Below are positions 3,274-15,197 of a stretch of DNA of 64,000 nucleotides, piece by piece. The number at the start of each line of letters is the position of its first letter. Positions within the stretch are counted from its first letter, which is position 1. The stretch is from Deltaproteobacteria bacterium. Lineage in GTDB: Bacteria > Desulfobacterota > Desulfuromonadia > Geobacterales > Pseudopelobacteraceae. The notes below the pieces were generated by a model that made no database searches, had not been told where the DNA came from, and saw only the letters and a program-made list of their open reading frames with translations. Position numbers and translations under genes: made by a program. The stretch is from assembly GCA_021780495.1 (NCBI GenBank), contig JAJXYO010000048.1:1-64000 (forward strand), written 5' to 3'.

Positions 3274-4704
3274 TCATCGTCTCAGGCCGATACTGAGGCT
3301 GCAAGCCCCGCGGGAATCAGTTTTGGTAATGACAAACATGTCCTTGAAATAGGACAGCTTACCCAGCGCAGTCGGGTCAGCCGCCGTGCTCAGTACACCG
3401 CTCACATCCATGGCAAGGTTGACATCAGGCGGTAATGAAGTAGTACCGGTGCTGTCGACATAGGCGGTATAGGCCGCGCTGCCGGAAGAATTTATCACGA
3501 TGCTTCCGGCAGCAGACAATGGGGTAACACCGGTCAAAAGCGTTCTGAGATCGTAGGCACCCGCCAGATCAGCCATGCTGAACGTAGTGGGGTCATTGGG
3601 GATAATATTTTCCATCTGGTAGATCCGCAACAGGTAGCGGGGAGCGGCACCACTGGTATCCGTGGCTGTTCCGACAATTATCGATTTATCGGCAGACATG
3701 ACTCCCCGGTCGATCACCGCAGCCGGTTGCGGAACAGCGCCTGTAAGACTTTCTGTAACCATGCCGTCTGCGGAAATATTCAGCATGCTGGCCTTGTCGC
3801 CCGGCTGTGCCGGATTTGAAGGTGCGATAAAAGACGTATACTTGATTTTCTGGTCCTTGCCGATCTGTCCAGCGGCGAATTCCCACTCCGGATTAAAGCC
3901 GCTTGCGATCTGGGAGTATATAAAGCGGCGCGCTCCGCCCCCCGTGTTCCCAAAACCCTGTACATCGCCGGCATCGCTGAACATGACACCGGGAACCTGT
4001 TTCTGTAGAATGGCTATCATCGGGGAGGCAGGATCAGGAGTTGCATGTGCAACAATCATTTTTCTGCCGAGAGCCATAACACCCTGAAAGGTTGGTGTCC
4101 CCGCCGGGACATCGCGCACCCGGCCGTCGGAAGCCACGAACAGGGCCGGAAGCAGGTAGACCGGTGACTGGGTATGTCCGGTGCTGTCGAGAAAAGAGTT
4201 GAAGGCGACGGCACCGGCGTTGTCAACGGTCACGCTGCCGCGCATCCAGCCTGCATTGGTGCCCGCGACCAGAATACTGAAGTTCCATGTGCCCGCCAGG
4301 TCAGCCTGAACATAGGGACCGAGCATTTCCGGCGTTGCAGCCACCTGGTTGGATTCTGCACTTTCACTGTTTGAATTGACGGACGTGACCACAAAATAAT
4401 AGGTCGTGCCGTTTGCCAGGCCGGCCTGGATGTAGGACGTACCGACAACAGTGGCAATCTTAGTTCCGGATGTCCTGGAAACGCCAGGCGTTGTTGAAAA
4501 GTATATAGCGTACTCTGCGGCGTTATGTGCCGTGGACCAGTTGAGCGCCACCTGGCCGTTATCGGCAGTTGCGGTCAGGCCGGTCGGCCGGTCTGGAGGT
4601 CCGGGGTCGTAACGCCACGGCGCATCGCCGCTGCATGCGCACAACTGTAGACAGAAAATGAGTGTTAAAACTATATGTAAAATATTCCGGCACCAGTTGT
4701 TCAT
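3274..4704 (-). CDS. fibronectin type III lipoprotein
   Basis: Predicted lipoprotein of 476 residues. The N-terminus has a hydrophobic signal ending in a lipobox (LCAC, then Ser), so Cys is the likely lipidated residue. One fibronectin III domain follows (about residues 35-125, with GTTYYFVVTSVN), then roughly 350 residues that I cannot assign and that may hold two repeated beta-rich segments, each opening with DLAG. The ATG at 4704 has GGGGGAAG upstream; the longer frame to 4824 runs into the receptor gene. Its fn3 module resembles those of the lipoprotein at 6822-7763, which lies on the other side of the TonB receptor, suggesting both act with it at the outer membrane. Confidence 0.75.
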   Translation of the reverse strand: MNNWCRNILHIVLTLIFCLQLCACSGDAPWRYDPGPPDRPTGLTATADNGQVALNWSTAHNAAEYAIYFSTTPGVSRTSGTKIATVVGTSYIQAGLANGTTYYFVVTSVNSNSESAESNQVAATPEMLGPYVQADLAGTWNFSILVAGTNAGWMRGSVTVDNAGAVAFNSFLDSTGHTQSPVYLLPALFVASDGRVRDVPAGTPTFQGVMALGRKMIVAHATPDPASPMIAILQKQVPGVMFSDAGDVQGFGNTGGGARRFIYSQIASGFNPEWEFAAGQIGKDQKIKYTSFIAPSNPAQPGDKASMLNISADGMVTESLTGAVPQPAAVIDRGVMSADKSIIVGTATDTSGAAPRYLLRIYQMENIIPNDPTTFSMADLAGAYDLRTLLTGVTPLSAAGSIVINSSGSAAYTAYVDSTGTTSLPPDVNLAMDVSGVLSTAADPTALGKLSYFKDMFVITKTDSRGACSLSIGLRR

Positions 4705-4756
4705 CGGTCTTCCCCCAGACGGTTTCCCGTCGCCATATATTGCCCGCATGCTCCTG

Positions 4757-6754
4757 TTACATCCGGATCTCAACGCCGCCGTAGATATAGCGCCCGGCTT
4801 GCGGCATACCGTAACTCGTCTCATAGTTTTCGTCGAACAGGTTGTCGGCCCCCAGATAGAGGGTTACCTTGTTGTCCAGAACTCTCTGGCTCAGCTTGAG
4901 ATTAACCAGGGTGTAGTCGTTCAGCTGTGCCTTCTGCACGGGAGTTACGTTGTTTTTGGTATAAAAATACTGGTTCCCGACATAGAGCAGCGACGCATAG
5001 GTCGAAAACCCGGATCCAAAGTCGTAGGTGACTTCCAGCGTGGCCTTGTCTCCCGGTGTATACTGCTGCTGGTCTCTGCCCGCCCGTGACCTGTCTTTGG
5101 AGTAGAGATGTGCATATGAAGCGCGCAGCAGGAGATTTTTTACCCAGCGCGTCGCAGCCGACAGCTCGATCCCGGCAAAACGTACCTCTGCCAGATTGGT
5201 ATTTCTGCTGGTTGACTGGTCATTCTGGATCAGATTTATCGCCTGCGTGTAAAACCCGGTGATACTGGCAGTACTTTCCCGGGGAAGTTTCCGCTCCACC
5301 CCGGTCTCATAGGTGTAGGAACGTTCTGCCGACAGGTTCGGATTACCCTTGGACAGGTCGTACAGATCACCCAGTGATGGGAAGCGGACGTTCCGCTTGA
5401 AAGACGCCTTCAGACGGGTCTCCCGGGACAGATCATAGCTGGCTCCGGCCAGCACGCCGTAGTCGTCACTGTTAAGTTCGTCCCTGGTCTGCAGGTAATG
5501 CCCATAGCCGGCCACGAGCCCCAATCCCGGCAGCGGCGACAGCTCGTACTCGATACCGGCTGAGTAGATGGAAAGGTATTTGTTCCCGTCCAACGGGACG
5601 AAGGTTGGCGGAATAGTGCCAAGCGACTGCTGACCGCTGTTATTCCAGTTATCCCGTTCGCCGGCGAGGGAGAGCGTCACTGTGCCGGCCTTCCCCAGAT
5701 CGTATCTGGGTTGCAGGGATACCCCGCTGATGGAGCTTGTGACGTGCTCCCGGAAGGAGCCGGCCAGGTTAATGGAGTTGAAGCTGCTGGTGTCGAACAG
5801 GTTGTCGTGCCCATCGAACTGATTGGTAAAGACCCAGCCCCTGAGGCTCAGCTGATCCGTTACCTGGTAATCTGCCGCCAGTTGGGCAGAAACACCGGTA
5901 GCGTTGTCAATGCGCTCATATTTGGGCGGGGAAGCAAAGGGATCATGGGAATCGTTGACAATACTGGCGGGTTTGCCGAATGAACCCTGGCTCAAATTGA
6001 AGGTTAACCCGAGGGCCAGGTCCCTGTTGGGGGTGAAATCGACGCTGCCGAACATTGAATTCCGTTCCCGGTCGCTGTTTATCCGGTAACCGGCGCCCTG
6101 TTCAGAGGTGGATCTGAAGCCGTCGGACAGGGGATAGCCATCAACCTTGCCAGTGCTTCCGCTCAGCAGGTAACTGAAGCGATCCGTTGCACCGGATATA
6201 CGTGCCTTGCCGAGATAGGGCGCGTGGTCACCGCTTTCCCCGGCCACCATCCCCTGCACACCGCTGGTGCCTTTTCGGGTAATAATATTGATGACGCCGC
6301 CCAATCCACCCTGGCCATAGAGCACCGAACTGGCACCCTCTGTCAGCTTGATCTCGGCGATGTTTTCCGTGGGTATGAGAGTAGGGTCGAACTGCTGGTC
6401 AAGGGCCGAGTTCATGGGGATCCCATCCAGCAGGAGCACAACGTGCCGGGTGCGAAAGCCGCGGATATCGATACGCGGGACCCCTTCACCGCCAATCCTG
6501 ACATTGACGCCCGGCAGCAGGGCAATGGCCTGATCCAGTGTCCTTGCCCCCCTGCGGCGGATATCCTCGGCAGTAACGGTATGAACCGTTTCACTTGCCT
6601 GGACACCTTCATCCTCCTGACCGGAAACAACGATCTCGCCGAGGGTATAGACGCCCGGCCGATTCTGCAGCTCTGCCGCAGAAACATCATGCCGAAAGAG
6701 ACACAGGCTACAGACAGCTGATAGCACGGCATAGTGCCGATATTTTGAGTTCAT
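4757..6754 (-). CDS. TonB-dependent outer-membrane receptor
   Basis: Outer-membrane active transporter of 665 residues. It has a signal peptide (cleavage near VSA-A, residue 26), a TonB-box-like segment (GEIVVSGQ) and a plug domain with LDQAIALLPGV, RIDIRGF and LLLDGIP. A 22-strand barrel follows, with the C-terminal pattern GRYIYGGVEIRM; the final Met instead of Phe is slightly atypical. Start ATG 6754; the binding site is weak. It lies downstream of tonB and of an ECF transporter set that begins with a Moco-type riboswitch, so its substrate may be a molybdenum or tungsten compound. This is inference; sequence alone would equally allow a cobalamin, haem or siderophore substrate. Confidence 0.93.
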   Translation of the reverse strand: MNSKYRHYAVLSAVCSLCLFRHDVSAAELQNRPGVYTLGEIVVSGQEDEGVQASETVHTVTAEDIRRRGARTLDQAIALLPGVNVRIGGEGVPRIDIRGFRTRHVVLLLDGIPMNSALDQQFDPTLIPTENIAEIKLTEGASSVLYGQGGLGGVINIITRKGTSGVQGMVAGESGDHAPYLGKARISGATDRFSYLLSGSTGKVDGYPLSDGFRSTSEQGAGYRINSDRERNSMFGSVDFTPNRDLALGLTFNLSQGSFGKPASIVNDSHDPFASPPKYERIDNATGVSAQLAADYQVTDQLSLRGWVFTNQFDGHDNLFDTSSFNSINLAGSFREHVTSSISGVSLQPRYDLGKAGTVTLSLAGERDNWNNSGQQSLGTIPPTFVPLDGNKYLSIYSAGIEYELSPLPGLGLVAGYGHYLQTRDELNSDDYGVLAGASYDLSRETRLKASFKRNVRFPSLGDLYDLSKGNPNLSAERSYTYETGVERKLPRESTASITGFYTQAINLIQNDQSTSRNTNLAEVRFAGIELSAATRWVKNLLLRASYAHLYSKDRSRAGRDQQQYTPGDKATLEVTYDFGSGFSTYASLLYVGNQYFYTKNNVTPVQKAQLNDYTLVNLKLSQRVLDNKVTLYLGADNLFDENYETSYGMPQAGRYIYGGVEIRM

Positions 6755-6785
6755 GAGGTACCGTCCGGGTTTCACTGGTAAGAAT

Positions 6786-6810
6786 CCCCCCCGGAGTTGA
6801 TCCGGGGGGG
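6786..6810 (-). terminator. perfect GC hairpin between fn3 gene and receptor gene
   Basis: A ten-base-pair perfect stem (seven C then GGA, paired with TCC then seven G) with a five-base loop, in the 67-base gap. On the minus strand it is not followed by a U-run, so it may stabilise or attenuate the message rather than terminate it. It would set receptor levels apart from those of the upstream transporter genes. Confidence 0.45.
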
Positions 6811-6821
6811 AGGTGCTGATG

Positions 6822-7763
6822 TCAGAGTACGGTGATTGCCTGGGCATTTGTCTGCGTTCCACTTTCACCGGCGGCATTTACAGCGGTGATCAGGACGTAG
6901 TAGGTCGCACCACTGATCAGACCGGCTACGTCAATAGAATTTGTAGCGCTGCTCGCAGGGGTTGCAGCCAGGACGGCTGATTTAGCCGGAACGGAATTTG
7001 ACTGCAGGTAGTAGACGTTGTAAGAAGTGGCGCCCAGAACCGCATTCCAGGTAACGGATATGTGACCTGCCACTGGTGACGTAACAACCCGTCCGGTTGG
7101 GCTTGCCGGAGGTTGCGGCGCTACGGAGGGGGTGGCGCTTTTTTCACTCGACACACTGCTCTCTCCGTTTGAATTCACGGCGGTGACAACAAAATAGTAC
7201 GGGGTGGCGTTTGCCAGACCGGTCACCACCAGCGGGCTGGCCACGGCGGCAATCTTGGTGCCTGTCGATACGGAAATGCCCGCAGTTGTTCCGTAATAGA
7301 CATTATAGGATGTCGCTCCGGCCACCGCGCTCCAGGAAACAGTTACCTGGCCATCACCTCCGGAGGCTGCAATCCCGGCCGGTTTTGCCATTGGTGTTGC
7401 GGGGACCTCGTTCGACACGGCACTCTCGCCGACATTGTTCACTGCGGTGACCACGAAATAGTAGGGCGTACCGTCGGTGAGCCCTGTTATCACCTGCGGA
7501 GCAGTAGCGTTGACCATCACCGCGCCGCTGGCGGTGGTAACGCCGGGGGTGGTACCGTAATAGATGTTGTAGGACGTGGCTCCGCTTACGGCGGTCCAAC
7601 TGACGGTGGCCGTGGCACTACCCGCCTTCACGGCTAGACCGAACGGCTGCGCCGGGGCCGTCAGGACCGTATTGCCGCCCCCGCCACAACCCGTAAAGAG
7701 CATCATCAGAACTGCCAGACTGGCAACTGCCAGCCACCCCATCAACTGTTTTCTCCATTTCAT
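6822..7763 (-). CDS. lipoprotein with three fibronectin III domains
   Basis: Predicted lipoprotein of 313 residues. Signal peptide with lipobox (LFTGC) and a Gly-rich linker, then three fn3 repeats of about 90 residues, two of them carrying the conserved ATPYYFVVTAVN or GTPYYFVVTAVN strand. Nothing else is present, so it is an adhesion or scaffold-like surface protein rather than an enzyme. AGGAGG lies seven bases before the ATG at 7763. It sits between tonB and the receptor gene in the same orientation, suggesting an accessory role in the uptake system. Confidence 0.8.
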   Translation of the reverse strand: MKWRKQLMGWLAVASLAVLMMLFTGCGGGGNTVLTAPAQPFGLAVKAGSATATVSWTAVSGATSYNIYYGTTPGVTTASGAVMVNATAPQVITGLTDGTPYYFVVTAVNNVGESAVSNEVPATPMAKPAGIAASGGDGQVTVSWSAVAGATSYNVYYGTTAGISVSTGTKIAAVASPLVVTGLANATPYYFVVTAVNSNGESSVSSEKSATPSVAPQPPASPTGRVVTSPVAGHISVTWNAVLGATSYNVYYLQSNSVPAKSAVLAATPASSATNSIDVAGLISGATYYVLITAVNAAGESGTQTNAQAITVL

Positions 7764-7807
7764 ACCGTTCTCCTCCTAGCAGTTAATTTCGGACCAAGCC
7801 GAATTCC

Positions 7808-8584
7808 CTATCGAGCAAGTGTAAATGTCATGGTAATGGTGAAGGTTGTCTCGGCTCCCTTGAACACGCCAGGGAGCGGCGGAAACGTTCCAACCGCGCT
7901 GATGGCTCGGCTGGCTGCTTCATCGAGAAAAGGGTGGCCGCACGACGTAAGCGCTTCAACACCTATGAGCGACCCGTTTCGGGCCAATACGAACCGGCGC
8001 CGGCAGCTCCCCTCCCTCCTCAACCTGCGGGCTGCCAGGGGATACTCCTTGTGCGTATCGATGAGGCGCTCCAAGAGCCGCTGGTAGGCGTCTCGCTGCT
8101 GTTGTGCAGCAACCTCGGTTCTTGTCCCGGTACCGTCGCTGCGCGGGCTCGTCTCCCGGCCTGCAGGTGCTGGACGGCCGGCTGCTGAACCAGAATTGAC
8201 GCCTGGCAGCACTCCTCCCGGATTGCCGAGGGCAAACCGTGGCGTAACAGGTGGCGCCTGAGCGGGCACCGTGGTGCCCTGCTGAACCGCCCCTCCGGCT
8301 AGCGGAAACTGCCTGGCGAGAGGCACCGCGGAGGCTGTTGCCGTGCGCCTGGGCTCCGGGCTCCGGGGGACTGCCGGAACAGCCCTGATCTGTCGCGCGC
8401 GCTCCTGACGTTCGCTGCTCTCCATCCGCTTCGCCGGCAACTCCACCACCATGTTTGACGAAGCGCCCCGCGGTACTGGCTGACGACCGTCAGTGGTCAA
8501 TGCGATGATCACCGCCAGATGGAGCAGCAGAGATACAAGCAGAAGGGGCGCAAGCCGCGCTATACCCCTTCCGCCGCTATTCAC
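7808..8584 (-). CDS. tonB: TonB energy transducer
   Basis: Protein of 258 residues with a short cytoplasmic N-terminus, one membrane anchor (about residues 12-30), a Pro-rich periplasmic spacer and a TonB C-terminal domain (about 165-258; EYPLAARRL, RNGSLIGVEAL, FLDEAASRAI, FPPLPG). It couples the proton gradient to the outer-membrane receptor. Start is a GTG at 8584 whose GTGA overlaps the stop of the S-component gene, so translation is coupled. exbB and exbD are not in the window. Being embedded between an ECF transporter and a receptor suggests a dedicated TonB. Confidence 0.88.
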   Translation of the reverse strand: MNSGGRGIARLAPLLLVSLLLHLAVIIALTTDGRQPVPRGASSNMVVELPAKRMESSERQERARQIRAVPAVPRSPEPRRTATASAVPLARQFPLAGGAVQQGTTVPAQAPPVTPRFALGNPGGVLPGVNSGSAAGRPAPAGRETSPRSDGTGTRTEVAAQQQRDAYQRLLERLIDTHKEYPLAARRLRREGSCRRRFVLARNGSLIGVEALTSCGHPFLDEAASRAISAVGTFPPLPGVFKGAETTFTITMTFTLAR

Positions 8585-9153
8585 CGTTTTTCGTCCTCTC
8601 CCTGATCGATCAAGCCGTTACGCTGCAGCCTCCGAATGATCGACGGCACCGCCAGAGCGCTGAGCCCGGCGTACAGGGCAAATAAGGACGCCGTAATGAT
8701 CGTCTTCTGCAGGACAATCTCAGTGTCCATTCCGCTCAGCCACTCAATCCATGTGTCTGAAAGCGCGCGAACAGCGGCAGACACAGACCCTACCAGGACA
8801 CAGGCCACCACGCTGGTTACAAAGGCCGGAAAGATATAGCCGGCACAATCCACAAGCAGAGCCGGCAGGAGGAACTTGACAAAGACAGCCGGACCTTTGG
8901 TACCCATGCCGAGCAGAAAACTGGCAAGGCTGACGATCAGCCCCACCAGGGTAGCCGAGCCGGTTTTCGGCACGCAGCCCCGCGCCAGGAGGAAAAAAAA
9001 CATGGTAAAAAACATGACGTGGCCCGGGAGGTGGAGGTGCAGACGCAGGCCGGCCCGTGCCAGGATGATGAATGTGGCGCAGAAGCCAAGGAGGATCCCC
9101 TCCCGTAAGGTGAAGCGGCGCCAGAGAAACATTCGTTCAGGGGTGTGCATCAT
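8581..9153 (-). CDS. ECF transporter S-component-like membrane protein
   Basis: Very hydrophobic protein of 190 residues with five to six predicted helices, cytoplasmic ends, and the size and position expected for the substrate-binding S component of an energy-coupling factor transporter. I do not recognise the substrate class; it does not look like CbiM/NikM, BioY or ThiT. Start: paired ATGs at 9153 and 9150, with AAAGG upstream, one base after the stop of the T-component gene. It overlaps tonB by GTGA. The call rests on context plus topology. Confidence 0.65.
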   Translation of the reverse strand: MMHTPERMFLWRRFTLREGILLGFCATFIILARAGLRLHLHLPGHVMFFTMFFFLLARGCVPKTGSATLVGLIVSLASFLLGMGTKGPAVFVKFLLPALLVDCAGYIFPAFVTSVVACVLVGSVSAAVRALSDTWIEWLSGMDTEIVLQKTIITASLFALYAGLSALAVPSIIRRLQRNGLIDQGEDEKR

Positions 9154-9154
9154 G

Positions 9155-9961
9155 TTAGACCTTTCTGTTAAGCTGGCCTCTGTTGCAGCATGGCTGCAAC
9201 AGAGGCGGGGTGACCGGTTGAGGCTTATCCGGCGACCGGACCGCCGGTTCACCACAGAGGGATACGTCGAAGTAGGTGCGCTGTTTCCGTCTGCCGAATT
9301 CGCGGGCCTCGGCCGACAGGGATACCTCTTCGGCTGTTTTGAGGGCCCGCACCATGAGCGGCAGCAGAAGGCAGTGGAACAGGTCGCCCCAGTTGCGCGG
9401 GTCAAGCAGTTGCCGGGGCAGCAGGCGCGCGCCGCGCAACCGCTGCGCTGTCGAAATCTCATCCAGCTCTCGAAAAAAGAACGGCACGAACCTGATGCTC
9501 ACAAACACCAGAAACGAGAGCCGATACGGGACAACCCGGCGCAGCCCTCTCATCATATCGCCGGTACTGGTGGTGCGCAGGAGCACCGCTCCCGGGATGT
9601 AGAACAGGATTACCTGCACGGACGTCCGGATCCCCGGCCAGAGCCCCTTGGATAGACCGCTGTGCAGGCAGTAGAGGCTGATGACGACCACAGCCTGGTA
9701 AACAAAAAACTTGATATCGCGCCACAGGTCAAAAGGTGTAAGCCGCGCCGCAAAGTAGTAGATCAGGGTCACGGCAACCAGCGCCAGCAGTTCGCGGGGG
9801 GTGCGCGCTCCCACGGCGAGTGCGCTCAACAGGGTGCAGAAGGCGATTTTCCACCCTGCCCCGAGCTGGTGTACCAGCGAGTCGCGGGTCATGTACTGGC
9901 AGGCATAGACACTCGTACGGGATAACTTGTGCCCAGTTTTTTTACCGGCAGGTTTCTTCAA
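9155..9961 (-). CDS. ECF transporter T component (CbiQ/EcfT family)
   Basis: Integral membrane coupling protein of 268 residues. After four to five helices it shows the two cytoplasmic coupling motifs of the family, QRLRGAR (about residue 178) and AREFG (about residue 226), which contact the ATPases. The C-terminal 35 residues are a poorly conserved tail. A TTG at 9961 with a G-rich site upstream overlaps the ATPase gene by 20 bases; an internal ATG at 9892 is the alternative. It forms the core of an ECF complex with the neighbouring double ATPase and S-like protein. Confidence 0.85.
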   Translation of the reverse strand: MKKPAGKKTGHKLSRTSVYACQYMTRDSLVHQLGAGWKIAFCTLLSALAVGARTPRELLALVAVTLIYYFAARLTPFDLWRDIKFFVYQAVVVISLYCLHSGLSKGLWPGIRTSVQVILFYIPGAVLLRTTSTGDMMRGLRRVVPYRLSFLVFVSIRFVPFFFRELDEISTAQRLRGARLLPRQLLDPRNWGDLFHCLLLPLMVRALKTAEEVSLSAEAREFGRRKQRTYFDVSLCGEPAVRSPDKPQPVTPPLLQPCCNRGQLNRKV

Positions 9962-11336
9962 GCCACCCCCCGCTAAGCTTCAGTCTGCGATCCGCCCAGC
10001 TACAATCGGGAAGTTCATCGTGAGATGCGATCACAATCGTGGTTCCGTAGCTGTCGGGCATCTTCGCCAGGATAGCCAGCAGGGCCAGACGTTGCGGGAA
10101 ATCGAGGCCGGCAAACGGCTCATCAAGCAGGAGCACACCCGGTTGAGGGGCTACCACCGCCGCAAGAGCCACACGGTGCTGTTCACCGAAACTGAGGGTC
10201 AGCGGCGCCCGCTCGGCAAGATGCTCGATCCCACAGAGGCCAAGCGCCTCAGCCACAACCCGCTCGGTTTCCCGGCGGGAAGCCCCCATTCGGCGCAGGG
10301 TGAATGCCACTTCCTCATAGACACTCTCGGCGAATAATTGCCGTGAAGGGTTCTGGAACAGCACCCCGACCTTTCCCGGCAGATGTTCCGGCTGGGGATC
10401 AGCAATGCCGGCAAGTTCTATTGTGCCGGAATCGGGTGTCTCCAGACCGGTCAAGCAGCGGAGCAGGCTTGACTTCCCGGCGCCATTAGTGCCGAACAGG
10501 TGTATCCGCTCCTCCCGCCTGACCTCCAAACTCACCTGCCTCAACACAATGCCGGTTTCAGGATAGGAGAGACAGACCTCCCGCATGGTAATGACAGCCG
10601 CTGACTCATGTCCTGATCTCGGCAGCGGTATGGCGGCGCGGTTTGGTTCATAGCGCTCAGGCTCCGGCATGGCAGGTGTTGAGGCGCCGACCCGGCCCCC
10701 TGCGATGGGCAGATAGCGGTCGATGATGCCTGAAAACGGACGTGGATCATGCTCGGCCATGATGATGGTATAGCCCTGGCCCTTCAACCCGGCGAGCAGC
10801 CCGCACAAATCCAGTTTCCCTTGGCTGTCCAGTTGCGAGGTCGGTTCATCGAGCAGCAGCAGTGACGGATTCATCGACAGGACCGCGGCTATGGTCAGCC
10901 GCTGTTTCTGGCCGGCCGAAAAACGCTCCACATGTCGCCTGTCACACCCTTCGAGCCCCACTGCCAGCAGAGATTTTCTGACTCGCCAGGCGATCTCCTC
11001 AGGCGGCAGGCAGAGGTTTTCAGGTCCGAAAGCAACCTCTTCTGCAACGGTCGTGCACAGGATCTGTGATTCGGCATTCTGGAACACCAGTCCGACCGGT
11101 GCCGACCATTCGCCATCACGTGCCGCCTCGGCAATCCTGATTGCCCCTGAATATTTACTGCCGGGCAGCAGCCCCTTGATGGCCAGCAGCAGGGTCGTCT
11201 TGCCGCAGCCGGAGTCGCCGGTCAGACAGATACACTCTCCGGTCCCCACGCTGCAGGATACGTCTGACAATGCCGGGCCAGAGGAACCGGGATAATGGTA
11301 CGTAAGGCCGCTTATGGTCAGAGCGTTACTCTGCAT
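9942..11336 (-). CDS. ECF transporter ATPase, two fused ABC domains
   Basis: Two CbiO/EcfA-type ABC domains in one chain (464 residues). Domain 1 has Walker A GDSGCGKTT, signature FSAGQKQR and Walker B LLLLDEPTSQLD. Domain 2 has GTNGAGKSS, LSFGEQHR and VLLLDEPFAGLD. It therefore supplies both ATPase sites of an ECF transporter. The start is uncertain: ATG 11336 gives the usual N-terminus but lacks a binding site. A GTG at 11390 overlaps the previous stop as GTGA with AAGGGG just before it and would add 18 residues. Confidence 0.88.
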   Translation of the reverse strand: MQSNALTISGLTYHYPGSSGPALSDVSCSVGTGECICLTGDSGCGKTTLLLAIKGLLPGSKYSGAIRIAEAARDGEWSAPVGLVFQNAESQILCTTVAEEVAFGPENLCLPPEEIAWRVRKSLLAVGLEGCDRRHVERFSAGQKQRLTIAAVLSMNPSLLLLDEPTSQLDSQGKLDLCGLLAGLKGQGYTIIMAEHDPRPFSGIIDRYLPIAGGRVGASTPAMPEPERYEPNRAAIPLPRSGHESAAVITMREVCLSYPETGIVLRQVSLEVRREERIHLFGTNGAGKSSLLRCLTGLETPDSGTIELAGIADPQPEHLPGKVGVLFQNPSRQLFAESVYEEVAFTLRRMGASRRETERVVAEALGLCGIEHLAERAPLTLSFGEQHRVALAAVVAPQPGVLLLDEPFAGLDFPQRLALLAILAKMPDSYGTTIVIASHDELPDCSWADRRLKLSGGWLEETCR

Positions 11337-11386
11337 GGAAGCTCTGGCCCATGAGCAATGCAATGATGGCTGCTTCGTACAATTGA

Positions 11387-11731
11387 TCACTTCCCCTTGA
11401 TATCAAGGGAAAATTTCCTGCCCTTTGGCGACGTTACGGTAGCACCAACTACCTTGCCTGCGACAACTCTGGCATCTAAGAGCGATTTCCGTCCGCCGTT
11501 CCAGTGGTAGTTCACGACAGGTGGGGATGTCCGTTGTACGTCACCCACGTTTATTCCTTCCGCACCGATCATTTTCACCAGCTGGGAATACGGCATCATC
11601 GGCTGCATTTTTTCGTAAAACCGCCTGTTAAAGACCGTGTCCGCAGTTCCCGTTTGAGCGGCAGACAGTGCCCCTGTTGCAATGCAGAAAATCATCAGCG
11701 CCAGCGTAGCTATGGTTATTTTCGTACTCAT
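11387..11731 (-). CDS. small secreted protein, first gene after Moco-type riboswitch
   Basis: Protein of 114 residues with a signal peptide (cleavage near ALSAAQ). The mature part (YSQLVKMIG, then YHWNGGRKSLLDARVVAGKVV) resembles the SmpA/BLIP-like small beta fold often written as DUF3862, but I am not certain. It is the first gene after the riboswitch at 11808-11975 and overlaps the ATPase gene (GTGA), so it could be a periplasmic binding or assembly factor for the transporter. Confidence 0.65.
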   Translation of the reverse strand: MSTKITIATLALMIFCIATGALSAAQTGTADTVFNRRFYEKMQPMMPYSQLVKMIGAEGINVGDVQRTSPPVVNYHWNGGRKSLLDARVVAGKVVGATVTSPKGRKFSLDIKGK

Positions 11732-11807
11732 GCCGTACTCCTTCTGGTCGATACTTTTTGTTGTGGGGTCTGACCGTTGTAAATCCCGTCAACCCTGGGC
11801 CGGGTTG

Positions 11808-11975
11808 AAATAAAACAGGGGTCCTTCATACACGAAGAGCCCCCTGCCAGTACGCTGTTCGTGCGCTCGGATGAAGTTTCTCCTTTTCAAAAGGAAGACG
11901 CTGCTGTTCCCGGCAGGACCCAAGGGCCGTCTTCCATAGGGCAAACTCTGGCAGGAAGAACAGCTCGGAGAAGCT
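11808..11975 (-). promoter_or_regulatory. Moco-type riboswitch with terminator (copy a)
   Basis: Minus-strand leader that aligns with the four other copies in this window. It has CUCCGAG at the 5' side (around 11965), a CUGCCGG-GAA-type hairpin and the UUCCUUUU/AAAAGGAGAA palindrome. The layout matches the Rfam Moco RNA motif as I know it: P1 from UCUCC and GGAGA, plus internal hairpins. An intrinsic terminator (CAGGGG/CCCCUG around a second stem, then UUUUAUUU) at 11811-11846 is the likely expression platform. It controls the secreted protein and the ECF/TonB genes. Family identity is from memory of the consensus. Confidence 0.75.
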
Positions 11976-12012
11976 TATGCGCTTTTCAACAGAGCGGCGG
12001 TCACAGGGACGG

Positions 12013-12210: not shown

Positions 12211-12954
12211 TCAATACTCCTTCAACTGCTGCCGCGAACAGGTCTGCCAACGGACGCCATCGGACTGCCCGACGGCAGGAACAACCAGCAGGATCGCCCG
12301 GCCGTCCAGAAGGACCGTCTTCACCTTATCGCCCAGACGCACCATATCCCGGTTTTCCACACTGCTACCATCCAGGGCACGGACCTCATCGATATCTTCA
12401 CGATCGCGCAACGCAGCGACGCTCACGGCGCCTCCGGGTTCGGCGAAGGCCAGCTGCCCTTTCAGGCGGCCGTCATTGCCACCCAGCCGCAGCCCCGCCC
12501 CAGCCAGGGCCCCGATCACCCCCAGCCCGGTGCCGCCATGTTCAGAGAGATGGACCCCCAAACGCCGGGCCAGTTCATAGGCCGATTCCTTTGTCAGGAC
12601 GGATTCCTTGGCGGTCCGGCCGTATTGTATGATTTCTCCGGATTCCGGCAGGCGATCAATGACGGCAACGCACAGCCCCGGGTCGGATCCGGGGGCACTC
12701 TCCCTGGTCAGAAATTCGGCCGCATGGCTGATCACCTGCTCCAGGGACTGCGGCTCTATCCGCGCCTGGAAACACATGGCGCTATTGTGGGAGGTGTAGG
12801 GGATATCGGGGTGAACCAGCAGCTGGTGGCGGGTGATAAAGCTGCTCGTTCCCCAGCCGTTATCCTCCAGGTCAACGGCAATCCTGGATGCCAATGCACC
12901 GGTGCCCGGACTTTCCAGGTTGTCGGTATCGTCAATGCTGATCAGTATCTGCAT
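12211..12954 (-). CDS. DDTDN-domain protein (TiaS N-terminal-like)
   Basis: Protein of 247 residues whose N-terminus reads MQILISIDDTDN, followed by a GTG motif and a conserved middle (SHNSAMCF, EHGGTGLGVIGALAGAGLRLGG). This corresponds to the TiaS/DUF1743 nucleotide-binding fold used in tRNA agmatinylcytidine synthesis, without the rest of TiaS. In other bacteria such stand-alone proteins are uncharacterised. The start at 12954 is set by GGGAGG seven bases upstream; the frame begins five codons earlier. A Moco-type riboswitch directly precedes it, so a role in cofactor synthesis or metal handling is likely, though inferred only from that. Confidence 0.7.
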   Translation of the reverse strand: MQILISIDDTDNLESPGTGALASRIAVDLEDNGWGTSSFITRHQLLVHPDIPYTSHNSAMCFQARIEPQSLEQVISHAAEFLTRESAPGSDPGLCVAVIDRLPESGEIIQYGRTAKESVLTKESAYELARRLGVHLSEHGGTGLGVIGALAGAGLRLGGNDGRLKGQLAFAEPGGAVSVAALRDREDIDEVRALDGSSVENRDMVRLGDKVKTVLLDGRAILLVVPAVGQSDGVRWQTCSRQQLKEY

Positions 12955-12993
12955 CTGAACGCCTCCCATGTACAGCGTAAAACGTTTCAGTCA

Positions 12994-13165
12994 ATAAAAA
13001 AGGGGGACCCCTCCCCATGGAAAGGTCCCCCTGCATCCGGACGCGGGTCCGGTTGTAAGTGATTCTCCTTTTCAAAAGGAAGGTGCTGCTGTTTCCGGCA
13101 GGACCCGTTGGCCTGGCACCATGAGGTTTCCCTGGTAGGCGCTGCAGCTCGGAGAGGTGAGGTAT
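12994..13165 (-). promoter_or_regulatory. Moco-type riboswitch with terminator (copy b)
   Basis: The cleanest copy, without inserted repeat. On the minus strand CUCUCCGAG is followed by a CCAGGGA hairpin, a small GGCC/GGGUC stem, a CUGCCGGAAACAGCAG stem-loop and the CCUUUUGAAAAGG palindrome ending in GGAGA, which can pair with the initial UCUCC. A strong intrinsic terminator (GGGGGACC / GGGGUCCCCC then six U) lies at 12994-13033, just before the DDTDN gene. Aptamer about 13062-13162. Confidence 0.8.
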
Positions 13166-13229
13166 CTGTAGTTTACTGGTCTCGGTACATGCTGGTGGCA
13201 ATCACCGTTTCAACATGAATTTTGCGAGT

Positions 13230-13569: not shown

Positions 13570-14415
13570 TCAGAGCCCCAGTGACTTCGGGTTTTTTCCT
13601 GCATCCGGGAAGAACAATGGCGCGCCGAACTTCTCCACCCCGAAGCGGCCAATAACGGCCTGGGTCTTCTTGGCCACCATGAAATCGGCAAAGGCCTTGC
13701 CGCCCTGAACGTTGATCTTGGGCCACTTGACCGCATTGAGTTCAATGACATGGTAGACGTTGAGCAATTTACCGTCCCCCTCCACCAGGATTTCAAGCCC
13801 CAGCCTCTTTTTCAGCGCCAGATAGGTCGCGCGGTCGGTAAGGGTATAGCATCTTTTCTCTGCTGCCACGTTCAGGGTCTCCCCCATGCCGAGACCGGTC
13901 GGCTGGTACCATTTCTGTCCGTTCGGGTTGATCGCAACAGCTTTCCAGAGTCCCTTTTCTTTGGCATGGGTACCGGAATTGTCGCCACGCGAGATGAATA
14001 TGGCGCCGGTTTTGGCGATGCGCTTCAGCGCCTCGGCGGCCGTAGCCCCCTTGATCCGGGCCGGATCACTGGCAGGACCGACAACAATAAAGTCGTTGTG
14101 CATCACCAGGCGGCGGGTAACGCCGAAACCACCGGCCATGAATTTCTTCTCGGCTTCGGGTGAGTGCACCAGCAATACATCGGCCTCACCCAGCTCGCCC
14201 ATCTTCATGGCCTGGCCGGAACCGACCGAAATCGTTTTGACCACAAAGCCGCTCTGCTTCTCGAACAGCGGCACTAAAACATCCAGCAGGCCTGAATCCT
14301 GGGTGCTGGTGGTGGTGGCCAGGATGACCGATTTCGAGGCGGCGGCCGCCGGCAGTGAACCAATCAGCAGGGCCAGTATTGCGATAACAAGGGTAAATCC
14401 GGTCAGTCGTTTCAT
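13570..14415 (-). CDS. tupA: tungstate/molybdate-binding protein (TupA family)
   Basis: Periplasmic oxyanion-binding protein of 281 residues with a signal peptide (to about residue 26). The family hallmarks TTTSTQDSGLLD (about residues 34-45) and RGDNSGTH (about 143-150) are present; TupA binds tungstate with very high affinity. AAGGAG lies seven bases before the ATG at 14415. It is second in a two-gene operon with a moaE-like gene under riboswitch c. The usual permease and ATPase (tupB, tupC) do not follow: the next feature is a terminator and then riboswitch b. Confidence 0.92.
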   Translation of the reverse strand: MKRLTGFTLVIAILALLIGSLPAAAASKSVILATTTSTQDSGLLDVLVPLFEKQSGFVVKTISVGSGQAMKMGELGEADVLLVHSPEAEKKFMAGGFGVTRRLVMHNDFIVVGPASDPARIKGATAAEALKRIAKTGAIFISRGDNSGTHAKEKGLWKAVAINPNGQKWYQPTGLGMGETLNVAAEKRCYTLTDRATYLALKKRLGLEILVEGDGKLLNVYHVIELNAVKWPKINVQGGKAFADFMVAKKTQAVIGRFGVEKFGAPLFFPDAGKNPKSLGL

Positions 14416-14430
14416 ACATGTCTCCTTTTG

Positions 14431-14820
14431 TCAGATTAAATCGGCATACCTCTCCGTTTTATGTATGGTCGCCATCTTCTTCATGCGGCTGATGCCGTGC
14501 CTGCACGCCTCGAAGGCATCCTCGCTGTTGGGCGAACTGGCAGCCACCAGCGAAATGATATCGCCAACGACCAGGCAGCCGGTCCGCCGTATCAGCAGCA
14601 CATCCTCCAGTTTCCAACGGCTTTCAAGTTCCCCGGCAATCCCCTCCAATTCCCGCTGGCAATCACCGTGAGCCTGGTACTCGATGCAGGTGGTGGCCTT
14701 GCCGGAACCGGACTGCTGTTTGACGACCGCAAAATGAAAGACCACGGAGCCGGAGAAGGATGAGCAGATGGAATCGTAGACAGCGGCAGGCTCAATGGGG
14801 GTATCAACGAGTTTGACCAT
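14431..14820 (-). CDS. MoaE-like molybdopterin synthase large subunit
   Basis: Protein of 129 residues with the MoaE layout: an N-terminal strand (VKLVDTPIEP), a middle with CIEYQAHGDCQRELEGIAGELESRW, then VLLIRRTGCLVVGDIISLVAASSPNSEDAFEACRHGISRMKK. MoaE with MoaD inserts sulfur into precursor Z to make molybdopterin. It is divergent: the usual glycine-rich R-D segment after strand 1 is poorly kept. Start chosen at 14820 with GAGG six bases upstream rather than ATG 14832. It is 15 bases from tupA and directly behind riboswitch c. No moaD is in the window. Confidence 0.75.
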   Translation of the reverse strand: MVKLVDTPIEPAAVYDSICSSFSGSVVFHFAVVKQQSGSGKATTCIEYQAHGDCQRELEGIAGELESRWKLEDVLLIRRTGCLVVGDIISLVAASSPNSEDAFEACRHGISRMKKMATIHKTERYADLI

Positions 14821-14850: not shown

Positions 14851-15170
14851 GCAAAAAGCCCCTTCTCGCTAGAAAAGGGGCGCGGACGGACCACCGGCAG
14901 CGGCCTGTCATGCACGGGTTCCCCTTTTCATCCCTAACCCGGATAAACCGGATAAGTGCGTTAACAAAATTATTTTCTTGCCAAAAAACAAAGAAAATAA
15001 TTTCTAACTCACTAATAGACAGGATAGTTCGTTCACGAAGTTATTTTTGCCAGAACAACGCAAAAAAACTTCTAACTCACTAAGGAGGGCGGCGCTGTTT
15101 CCGGCGACACCCGCAGGTCGCAGGCCGTGAGGATTATCCCTGGTAGGCCGGTACGACTCGGAGACTGGCA
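14851..15170 (-). promoter_or_regulatory. Moco-type riboswitch with terminator and two inserted hairpin repeats (copy c)
   Basis: The 5' aptamer half (CUCGGAG complement at about 15158-15164, the CCAGGGAUAAUCC hairpin, and the CGCCGGAAACAGCG loop) lies at 15083-15168. Its CCUCCUU arm is separated from the AAAAGGGG arm (about 14920-14930) by two tandem hairpin repeats. A perfect intrinsic terminator (GCCCCUUUUCU / AGAAGGGGC then five U) is at 14851-14881, directly before the moaE-like gene. It is more divergent than the other copies. Confidence 0.7.
14937..15081 (-). repeat. two hairpin repeats inside riboswitch c
   Basis: Copies at about 14937-15013 and 15014-15081 share the frame GATAAGTGCGTTAAC or GATAGTTCGTTCACG at one end and TTCTAACTCACT at the other, enclosing self-complementary AT-rich arms. 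They belong to the same family as the copies at 29474, 29743 and 47659. Inner sequences differ, but the pairing is kept. Confidence 0.75.
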
Positions 15171-15197
15171 AAATATGGCGGCACTATAACGGGATCG

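Follow-up and report, generated by a model that had tools for sequence, protein, structure and literature searches.

What does a bacterium take up through a TonB-dependent receptor and an energy-coupling factor (ECF) transporter that are encoded together behind a riboswitch of the molybdenum cofactor (Moco) type? The question is raised by an operon in a stretch of 64,000 nucleotides, named here the window, from a sediment-type deltaproteobacterium of the family Pseudopelobacteraceae (assembly GCA_021780495.1); the window belongs to a contig of 93.9 kb (G000:C39) in a genome of 3.68 Mb, whose closest named relatives are Geobacteraceae/Desulfuromonadaceae. With a probability of about 0.6, we propose a two-membrane, TonB- and ATP-driven uptake system for a species of tungsten (or molybdenum), as we infer the substrate to be, which would be off when the tungsten cofactor (Tuco) is plentiful. 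The link of this operon to molybdenum and tungsten metabolism comes from many genomes and from two kinds of regulator and is well supported.

The genes of the operon all lie on the minus strand, in the following order, with gaps of less than about 100 bases or overlaps between neighbours:

11387..11731, minus: small secreted protein of about 114 amino acids, with a related gene in loci L016-L020
9942..11390, minus: ECF ATPase A1A2, two fused ABC domains (PF00005 twice; cbiO subfamily TIGR01166 above cut-off)
9155..9961, minus: ECF T component of the CbiQ family (PF02361, 55.4 bits)
8581..9150, minus: ECF S component matching no named family, with the EcfS fold in an AlphaFold model
7808..8584, minus: dedicated TonB (PF03544, 46.7 bits; TIGR01352)
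6822..7763, minus: fn3-repeat lipoprotein with three fn3 stretches (PF00041)
4757..6877, minus: TonB-dependent receptor, Plug and barrel (PF07715, 82.6 bits; PF00593, 110.4 bits)
3274..4824, minus: second fn3 lipoprotein (PF00041), conserved in 15 loci

These coordinates and domain matches bear out the row of mostly overlapping genes in one direction, with ECF transporter, TonB, receptor and fn3 lipoproteins, that a preliminary description had drawn from the letters of the window. Walker A, Walker B and signature motifs are visible in each half of A1A2, and the small secreted protein had no match in a Pfam search. As in dedicated (group I) ECF transporters, the genes for A1A2 and T stand beside that for S, an adjacency found in 23 loci. 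A terminator scan of the stretch returned 15 sites against 11.1 ± 3.8 expected from shuffled sequence, i.e. no excess.

The solved chain nearest to the receptor is BtuB (2.9e-21), and a CobC-like phosphatase is encoded upstream at 15929-15198, both of which would suit the uptake of a corrinoid (cobalamin or cobinamide) that happens to be under Moco or Tuco control. However, the receptor misses the BtuB equivalog TIGR01779 by far (148 bits, cut-off 599.7), the CobC-like gene is part of an aldehyde oxidoreductase maturation row, no BtuCDF or cobalamin genes were seen in the clusters, and Rfam scans of these loci gave no cobalamin riboswitch, all of which makes corrinoid uptake highly improbable. 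As in the cobalamin systems of BtuB and its inner-membrane importers, a TonB receptor, here nearest to BtuB, is paired with an importer of the inner membrane, and a cofactor riboswitch precedes them; the operon differs from those systems in its S family, its riboswitch and its tungsten and molybdenum gene neighbours.

The control elements upstream of the operon and of the genes preceding it are as follows:

11864..11982, minus: RF01055 aptamer without P3 stem, upstream of the ECF-TonB operon (43.5 bits, gathering score 36)
11816..11846, minus: predicted intrinsic terminator, the expression platform of an OFF switch (fold of -15.8 kcal/mol), followed by UUUUAUUU
13049..13166, minus: RF01055 aptamer without P3 stem, upstream of the IDDTD gene (49.8 bits, gathering score 36)
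13001..13032, minus: predicted terminator of the preceding aptamer (stem of 14 pairs, -27.5 kcal/mol)
15053..15175, minus: RF01055 aptamer without P3 stem, sub-threshold (28.6 bits), upstream of moaE-tupA

The first aptamer and its terminator had been placed correctly to within a few bases (at 11808-11975). By prediction, the 3′ strand of this aptamer can pair alternatively with the terminator, which fits a transcriptional OFF switch. Six RF01055 matches are found in the genome, all on the contig of the window and all without the P3 stem, which is likewise absent from each of the 26 aptamers aligned from the window genome and its relatives, so that none has the architecture of the P3-bearing, Moco-sensing class. 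The distribution of P3-less Moco RNAs was reported to coincide almost perfectly with that of tungsten cofactor metabolism, and Tuco sensing has been proposed for them, a specificity that is a correlation and not a binding result (Regulski et al. 2008, PMC2408646). Because all 26 aptamers belong to this Tuco-correlated class, tungsten seems likelier than molybdenum as the metal sensed or imported. The uptake reading of the preliminary description keeps its link to the two metals, with tungsten now preferred. With the published P3-less RNAs the present ones share the aptamer core, the place upstream of tungsten and molybdenum genes, the terminator platform and the occurrence in tandem; an operon of TonB receptor and ECF transporter is not among the targets given there, and TonB is not mentioned (PMC2408646). 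Downstream of the strongest aptamer of the contig (82440-82556, plus strand, 60.4 bits), at a distance of 28 bases, lies a member of the tungsten aldehyde:ferredoxin oxidoreductase (AOR) gene family (82585-84321); next come genes for ThiF and for a TupB-like permease.

Three of the six aptamers (15175-15053, 29641-29521 and 29912-29791) carry a repeat of about 66-75 bases inside their 3′ hairpin loop, and it is because of this insert that the aptamer at 15 kb stays below threshold. There, the repeat comprises two units, and the insert matches 19 places in the genome. The core of the interrupted aptamers may still fold, since the aptamer 3′ strand (TGAAAAGGAG/TGAAAAGGGG) resumes past the insert. 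At 29912-29390 of the window, tandem aptamers are 98% identical over 98 bases, with a terminator-like hairpin after each, and downstream of them lie a molybdotransferase-like gene (28647-27625) and a gene for a molybdopterin-dependent aldehyde oxidoreductase (27446-24651).

A second riboswitch together with tupA had also been reported just upstream of the operon. The riboswitch is indeed present at 13166-13049, but the gene that comes next encodes the IDDTD protein, and the tupA-like gene comes after moaE, behind the third aptamer:

12211..12969, minus: IDDTD protein, a stand-alone TiaS kinase-domain-like (TCKD) enzyme, predicted to be ATP-dependent (structure and profile matches)
14431..14820, minus: MoaE, molybdopterin synthase large subunit (PF02391, 87 bits)
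13570..14415, minus: TupA-like tungstate/oxyanion-binding protein (NF041772, 234 bits, below the TupA equivalog cut-off of 400, hence the name)

The IDDTD gene, which stands under its own aptamer and was missing from the earlier gene list, is the most constant partner of the TonB-ECF set. It encodes a protein of 247-252 amino acids, with a start more likely at 12954 and an IDDTDN motif near the N-terminus. Its predicted structure (predicted local distance difference test score, pLDDT, 87.8) matches the TiaS kinase domain with an E value of 3.5e-10, and a profile match gives 6.4e-8. D8, D9, D11 and T18 are invariant in 16 sequences, with T18 aligned with Thr18 of TiaS. IDDTD has the TCKD fold and catalytic residues of the kinase domain of TiaS (the tRNA-Ile2 agmatidine synthetase) and of methanogenesis marker protein 11; unlike TiaS, it has no tRNA-binding domains (252 amino acids against about 420, and 22 bits against the 600 of the full-length TiaS equivalog) and is linked to tungsten and molybdenum genes.

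When the S family was used as the query, 22 more loci were recovered from named assemblies, almost all of them of Geobacterales and Desulfuromonadales, with one from Anaeromyxobacter and a few from other deltaproteobacteria. The core of receptor, A1A2, T, S and IDDTD recurs in the Geobacterales, the Desulfuromonadales and other deltaproteobacteria, and the same aptamer accompanies rows of this type in L011, L016-L019, L021-L025, L027, L078 and L080; as closely similar rows with this aptamer are present in some dozen further species, the arrangement is not due to chance. The loci show three arrangements. Clade I, which includes the window, has riboswitch, IDDTD, (small protein), A, T, S, TonB, fn3, receptor and fn3; clade II has receptor, (TupA-like protein), A, T and S, IDDTD and TonB being close by at some of its loci and the TupA-like binding protein lying between receptor and ECF genes in L013 and L029; clade III has receptor, A, T, S and IDDTD, followed in L071 by ExbB, ExbD and TonB (PF01618, PF02472, PF03544) and a Mo-storage protein. 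Two loci show long rows. In L068, a riboswitch with an aptamer of P3-less length is followed without interruption by AOR, ThiF, ModE, receptor, A, T, S, IDDTD, TonB, porin, TupABC and MoeA; L027 reads riboswitch, AOR, ThiF, riboswitch, IDDTD, receptor, A, T, S, TonB, riboswitch, MoaE, TupA and, further on, TupC and MoeA. Receptor and A-T-S genes are adjacent in three clades, in either of two gene orders and across several families, which makes it distinctly unlikely that receptor/TonB and ECF module are two separate transporters with shared control only, as might be supposed from L092 and L093, where S is absent and IDDTD has a related receptor in its vicinity.

The neighbours of the clusters include Mo-storage protein genes (L012, L013, L017, L071-L073 and L077; 1e-55 to the Azotobacter protein), ModE (L012, L068), tungsten-type AOR (L027, L068), MoaE, TupABC and MoeA. 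These bear on a further possibility, namely that the cargo is another substrate, such as iron or a compound related to aldehyde oxidoreductases, for which the demand tracks the activity of tungsten or molybdenum enzymes. Indeed, in the window the locus adjoins a molybdopterin-dependent aldehyde oxidoreductase row, and riboswitches of this kind control enzymes too, not uptake alone. Across lineages, however, the constant neighbours are transport, storage and cofactor genes for the two metals and not any one enzyme, and we regard such a substrate as rather unlikely. The phylogenetic profile of AOR was uninformative, AFOR domains being present in 246 of the 277 genomes of the class.

Among these 277 genomes, S is found in 43 (16 of 82 genera); RF01055 occurs in 42 of the 43 S-bearing genomes against 167 of the class overall, and IDDTD in 43 of 43 against 62 overall, counts that take no account of common descent. 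Several of those inspected among the 19 genomes with IDDTD and without S have a Mo-storage protein or TupABC adjoining. Judged from its gene context, the IDDTD family is by itself linked to tungsten and molybdenum. RF01055 is present in 60 of the 62 IDDTD-bearing genomes, and IDDTD often adjoins the Mo-storage protein or TupABC (L085, L090, L087-L089).

The second kind of regulator is ModE, for which the consensus CGnTATATA-N6-TATATAnCG is available from G. sulfurreducens (PMC545781). Sites resembling it were detected upstream of the first gene in L026, L029, L033, L034, L012 and L070-L076, with P ≤ 0.01 per region against Markov shuffles, near-identical loci not being independent; the scan returned none in L028, L030, L037, L068, L069 or the window. 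The loci with these ModE-box-like operators belong to lineages whose operon lacks the riboswitch, which is carried by one lineage. In riboswitch-bearing loci of Geomonas type, a ModE-like palindrome lies about 40 bases before the IDDTD start, and ModE genes are present in 22 of the 25 genomes tested. The putative operators are suggestive of ModE control of the operons in riboswitch-free lineages. The Moco-II RNA (RF01713), considered as an alternative switch, occurs in several genomes whose operon is free of RF01055; none was seen directly upstream of the operon, and the only element near one (L012 7929-7884) precedes another gene.

The S component would determine what passes the inner membrane. 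Its AlphaFold model is mostly helical and of membrane type (pLDDT 81.6) and superimposes over almost its full length on EcfS structures, with Z scores of 16.7 for 5edl, 14.7 for FolT and 13.8 for ThiT and BioY; NikM (11.8) and CbiM (10.4) chains are among the matches, below the vitamin EcfS proteins. The Foldseek probability to EcfS is 1.00, and the model has the predicted six-helix EcfS fold. The preliminary description had considered that S might fall into a known cobalt, nickel or vitamin family, and this is not the case: against Pfam and NCBIfam, no named family is reached above cut-off, CbiM and NikM are not matched at an E value of 0.1, and the MptD/Trep_Strep cut-offs are missed (14.0 against 28.7 bits in Pfam, 15.4 against 76.45 in NCBIfam). 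A sequence-profile search against the PDB gave no match. The most conserved stretch of S extends from R36 to F48, with a PGH motif, at the junction of helices 1 and 2, the gate to the binding site in known EcfS proteins; the Arg and His conserved there would suit an anionic cargo. The A and T components and the metal setting are common to the operon and to CbiMNQO and NikMNQO, from which it differs in S, neither CbiM nor NikM by Pfam or NCBIfam and nearer to the vitamin EcfS proteins by fold.

A vitamin-type S fold, a receptor nearest to BtuB and control by a cofactor-sensing riboswitch would also agree with pyranopterin salvage, in which the cargo of receptor and ECF transporter is molybdopterin, tungstopterin or a product of their breakdown, to be re-phosphorylated by IDDTD as in cobinamide salvage; IDDTD keeps the residues of the TiaS kinase domain and accompanies S in every S-bearing genome. 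Against this stand the great lability of molybdopterin, the occurrence in the clusters of metal-responsive ModE boxes along with Mo-storage and TupA-like binding proteins, and the presence of IDDTD with TupABC and the Mo-storage protein also where there is no receptor-ECF set. The 19 IDDTD genomes without S also weaken the idea of a salvage kinase that serves this importer alone. We consider salvage unlikely; import of intact or partial molybdopterin or tungstopterin with re-phosphorylation by IDDTD, which would be the first salvage route for a pyranopterin, parallel to that for corrinoids, is a shade more doubtful still.

In the preferred reading, uptake of a tungsten or molybdenum species, the fn3 lipoproteins might help in capture at the cell surface, and the BtuB-like receptor with its own TonB would carry a scarce species of either metal (an oxyanion complex or a metallophore chelate) across the outer membrane. 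S would then bind it, in some lineages on hand-over from the TupA-like binding protein, T and the double ATPase would drive it into the cell, and the metal would go to MoeA-type insertion or to the Mo-storage protein, with IDDTD catalyzing an ATP-dependent reaction that acts on the cargo or belongs to cofactor metabolism. A plentiful tungsten (or molybdenum) cofactor would bind the aptamer, stabilize P1 and let the terminator form, closing the operon, which starvation would open; in other lineages, ModE probably closes the system when the supply is good.

Several points weigh against metal uptake. No ECF transporter that imports an oxyanion is known to us, and the usual ligands of EcfS proteins are vitamins, taken up with no binding protein involved; by its modelled fold, S is nearer to the vitamin EcfS proteins than to NikM and CbiM, which could favour an organic cargo. 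The cluster often encodes TupABC as well, and this already provides a route for tungstate through the inner membrane. As for the outer membrane, the general view is that oxyanions of tungsten and molybdenum enter via porins, through which the bare ions should pass. Since IDDTD also occurs in the 19 S-free genomes, it may serve cofactor metabolism rather than the importer. Finally, the co-occurrence counts are open to the effect of common descent, and three genomes with the core (G071, G072 and G078) are without any RF01055 match.

Some further features of the loci were noted. Porin-like genes with similar N-termini lie directly before tupA or moaE-tupA in L068 (7153-5873; PF07396, phosphate-selective type) and L085 (7656-8960), and are possible candidates for an oxyanion porin for tungstate. 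A second TupA-like binding protein, with the motif STIGPIDAGI, is often encoded before tupA (L012 15982-15128, L017 1929-2774); its score of 163.8 is far short of the TupA cut-off of 400, and it may have another specificity. In L070-L072, larB/larC-like genes and a P-loop protein lie beside the clade III receptors, perhaps by chance. At 61062-60282 on the minus strand, the window carries group II intron RNA domains (RF02012, RF00029).

Among known transporters of these metals, TupABC, ModABC and WtpABC have control and neighbourhood in common with the operon, and a TupA-like protein is sometimes in the same row; they have no TonB receptor, and a classical ABC permease takes the place of the ECF module. 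Within the openly licensed literature (subscription papers lay outside the scope), searches in which TonB was combined with molybdate, tungstate, ECF, riboswitch or molybdophore returned no TonB-ECF system for tungsten or molybdenum, and to that extent the earlier statement that no such system had been described holds. It needs one qualification: a passage of the 2012 genome paper of Pelobacter carbinolicus already remarks that TonB channels near cobalamin or molybdopterin riboswitches, or near metal- or molybdopterin-binding proteins, "may transport metals", and reports three AOR genes under such riboswitches (PMC3543383). In that passage the remark takes one sentence, and the ECF module, IDDTD, the conservation of the cluster and the tungsten link are not worked out.

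If the proposed function is correct, some sediment bacteria would actively scavenge tungsten, molybdenum or their complexes against a gradient, which would extend the known cargoes of ECF importers by a new class and would point to tungsten-binding metallophores yet to be found. It would also bear on the competition for metals among anaerobes that rely on tungstoenzymes, and the IDDTD family would gain a testable role. Taken as a whole, the conserved TonB-ECF gene set suggests a new bacterial means of acquiring tungsten or molybdenum when these metals are scarce.

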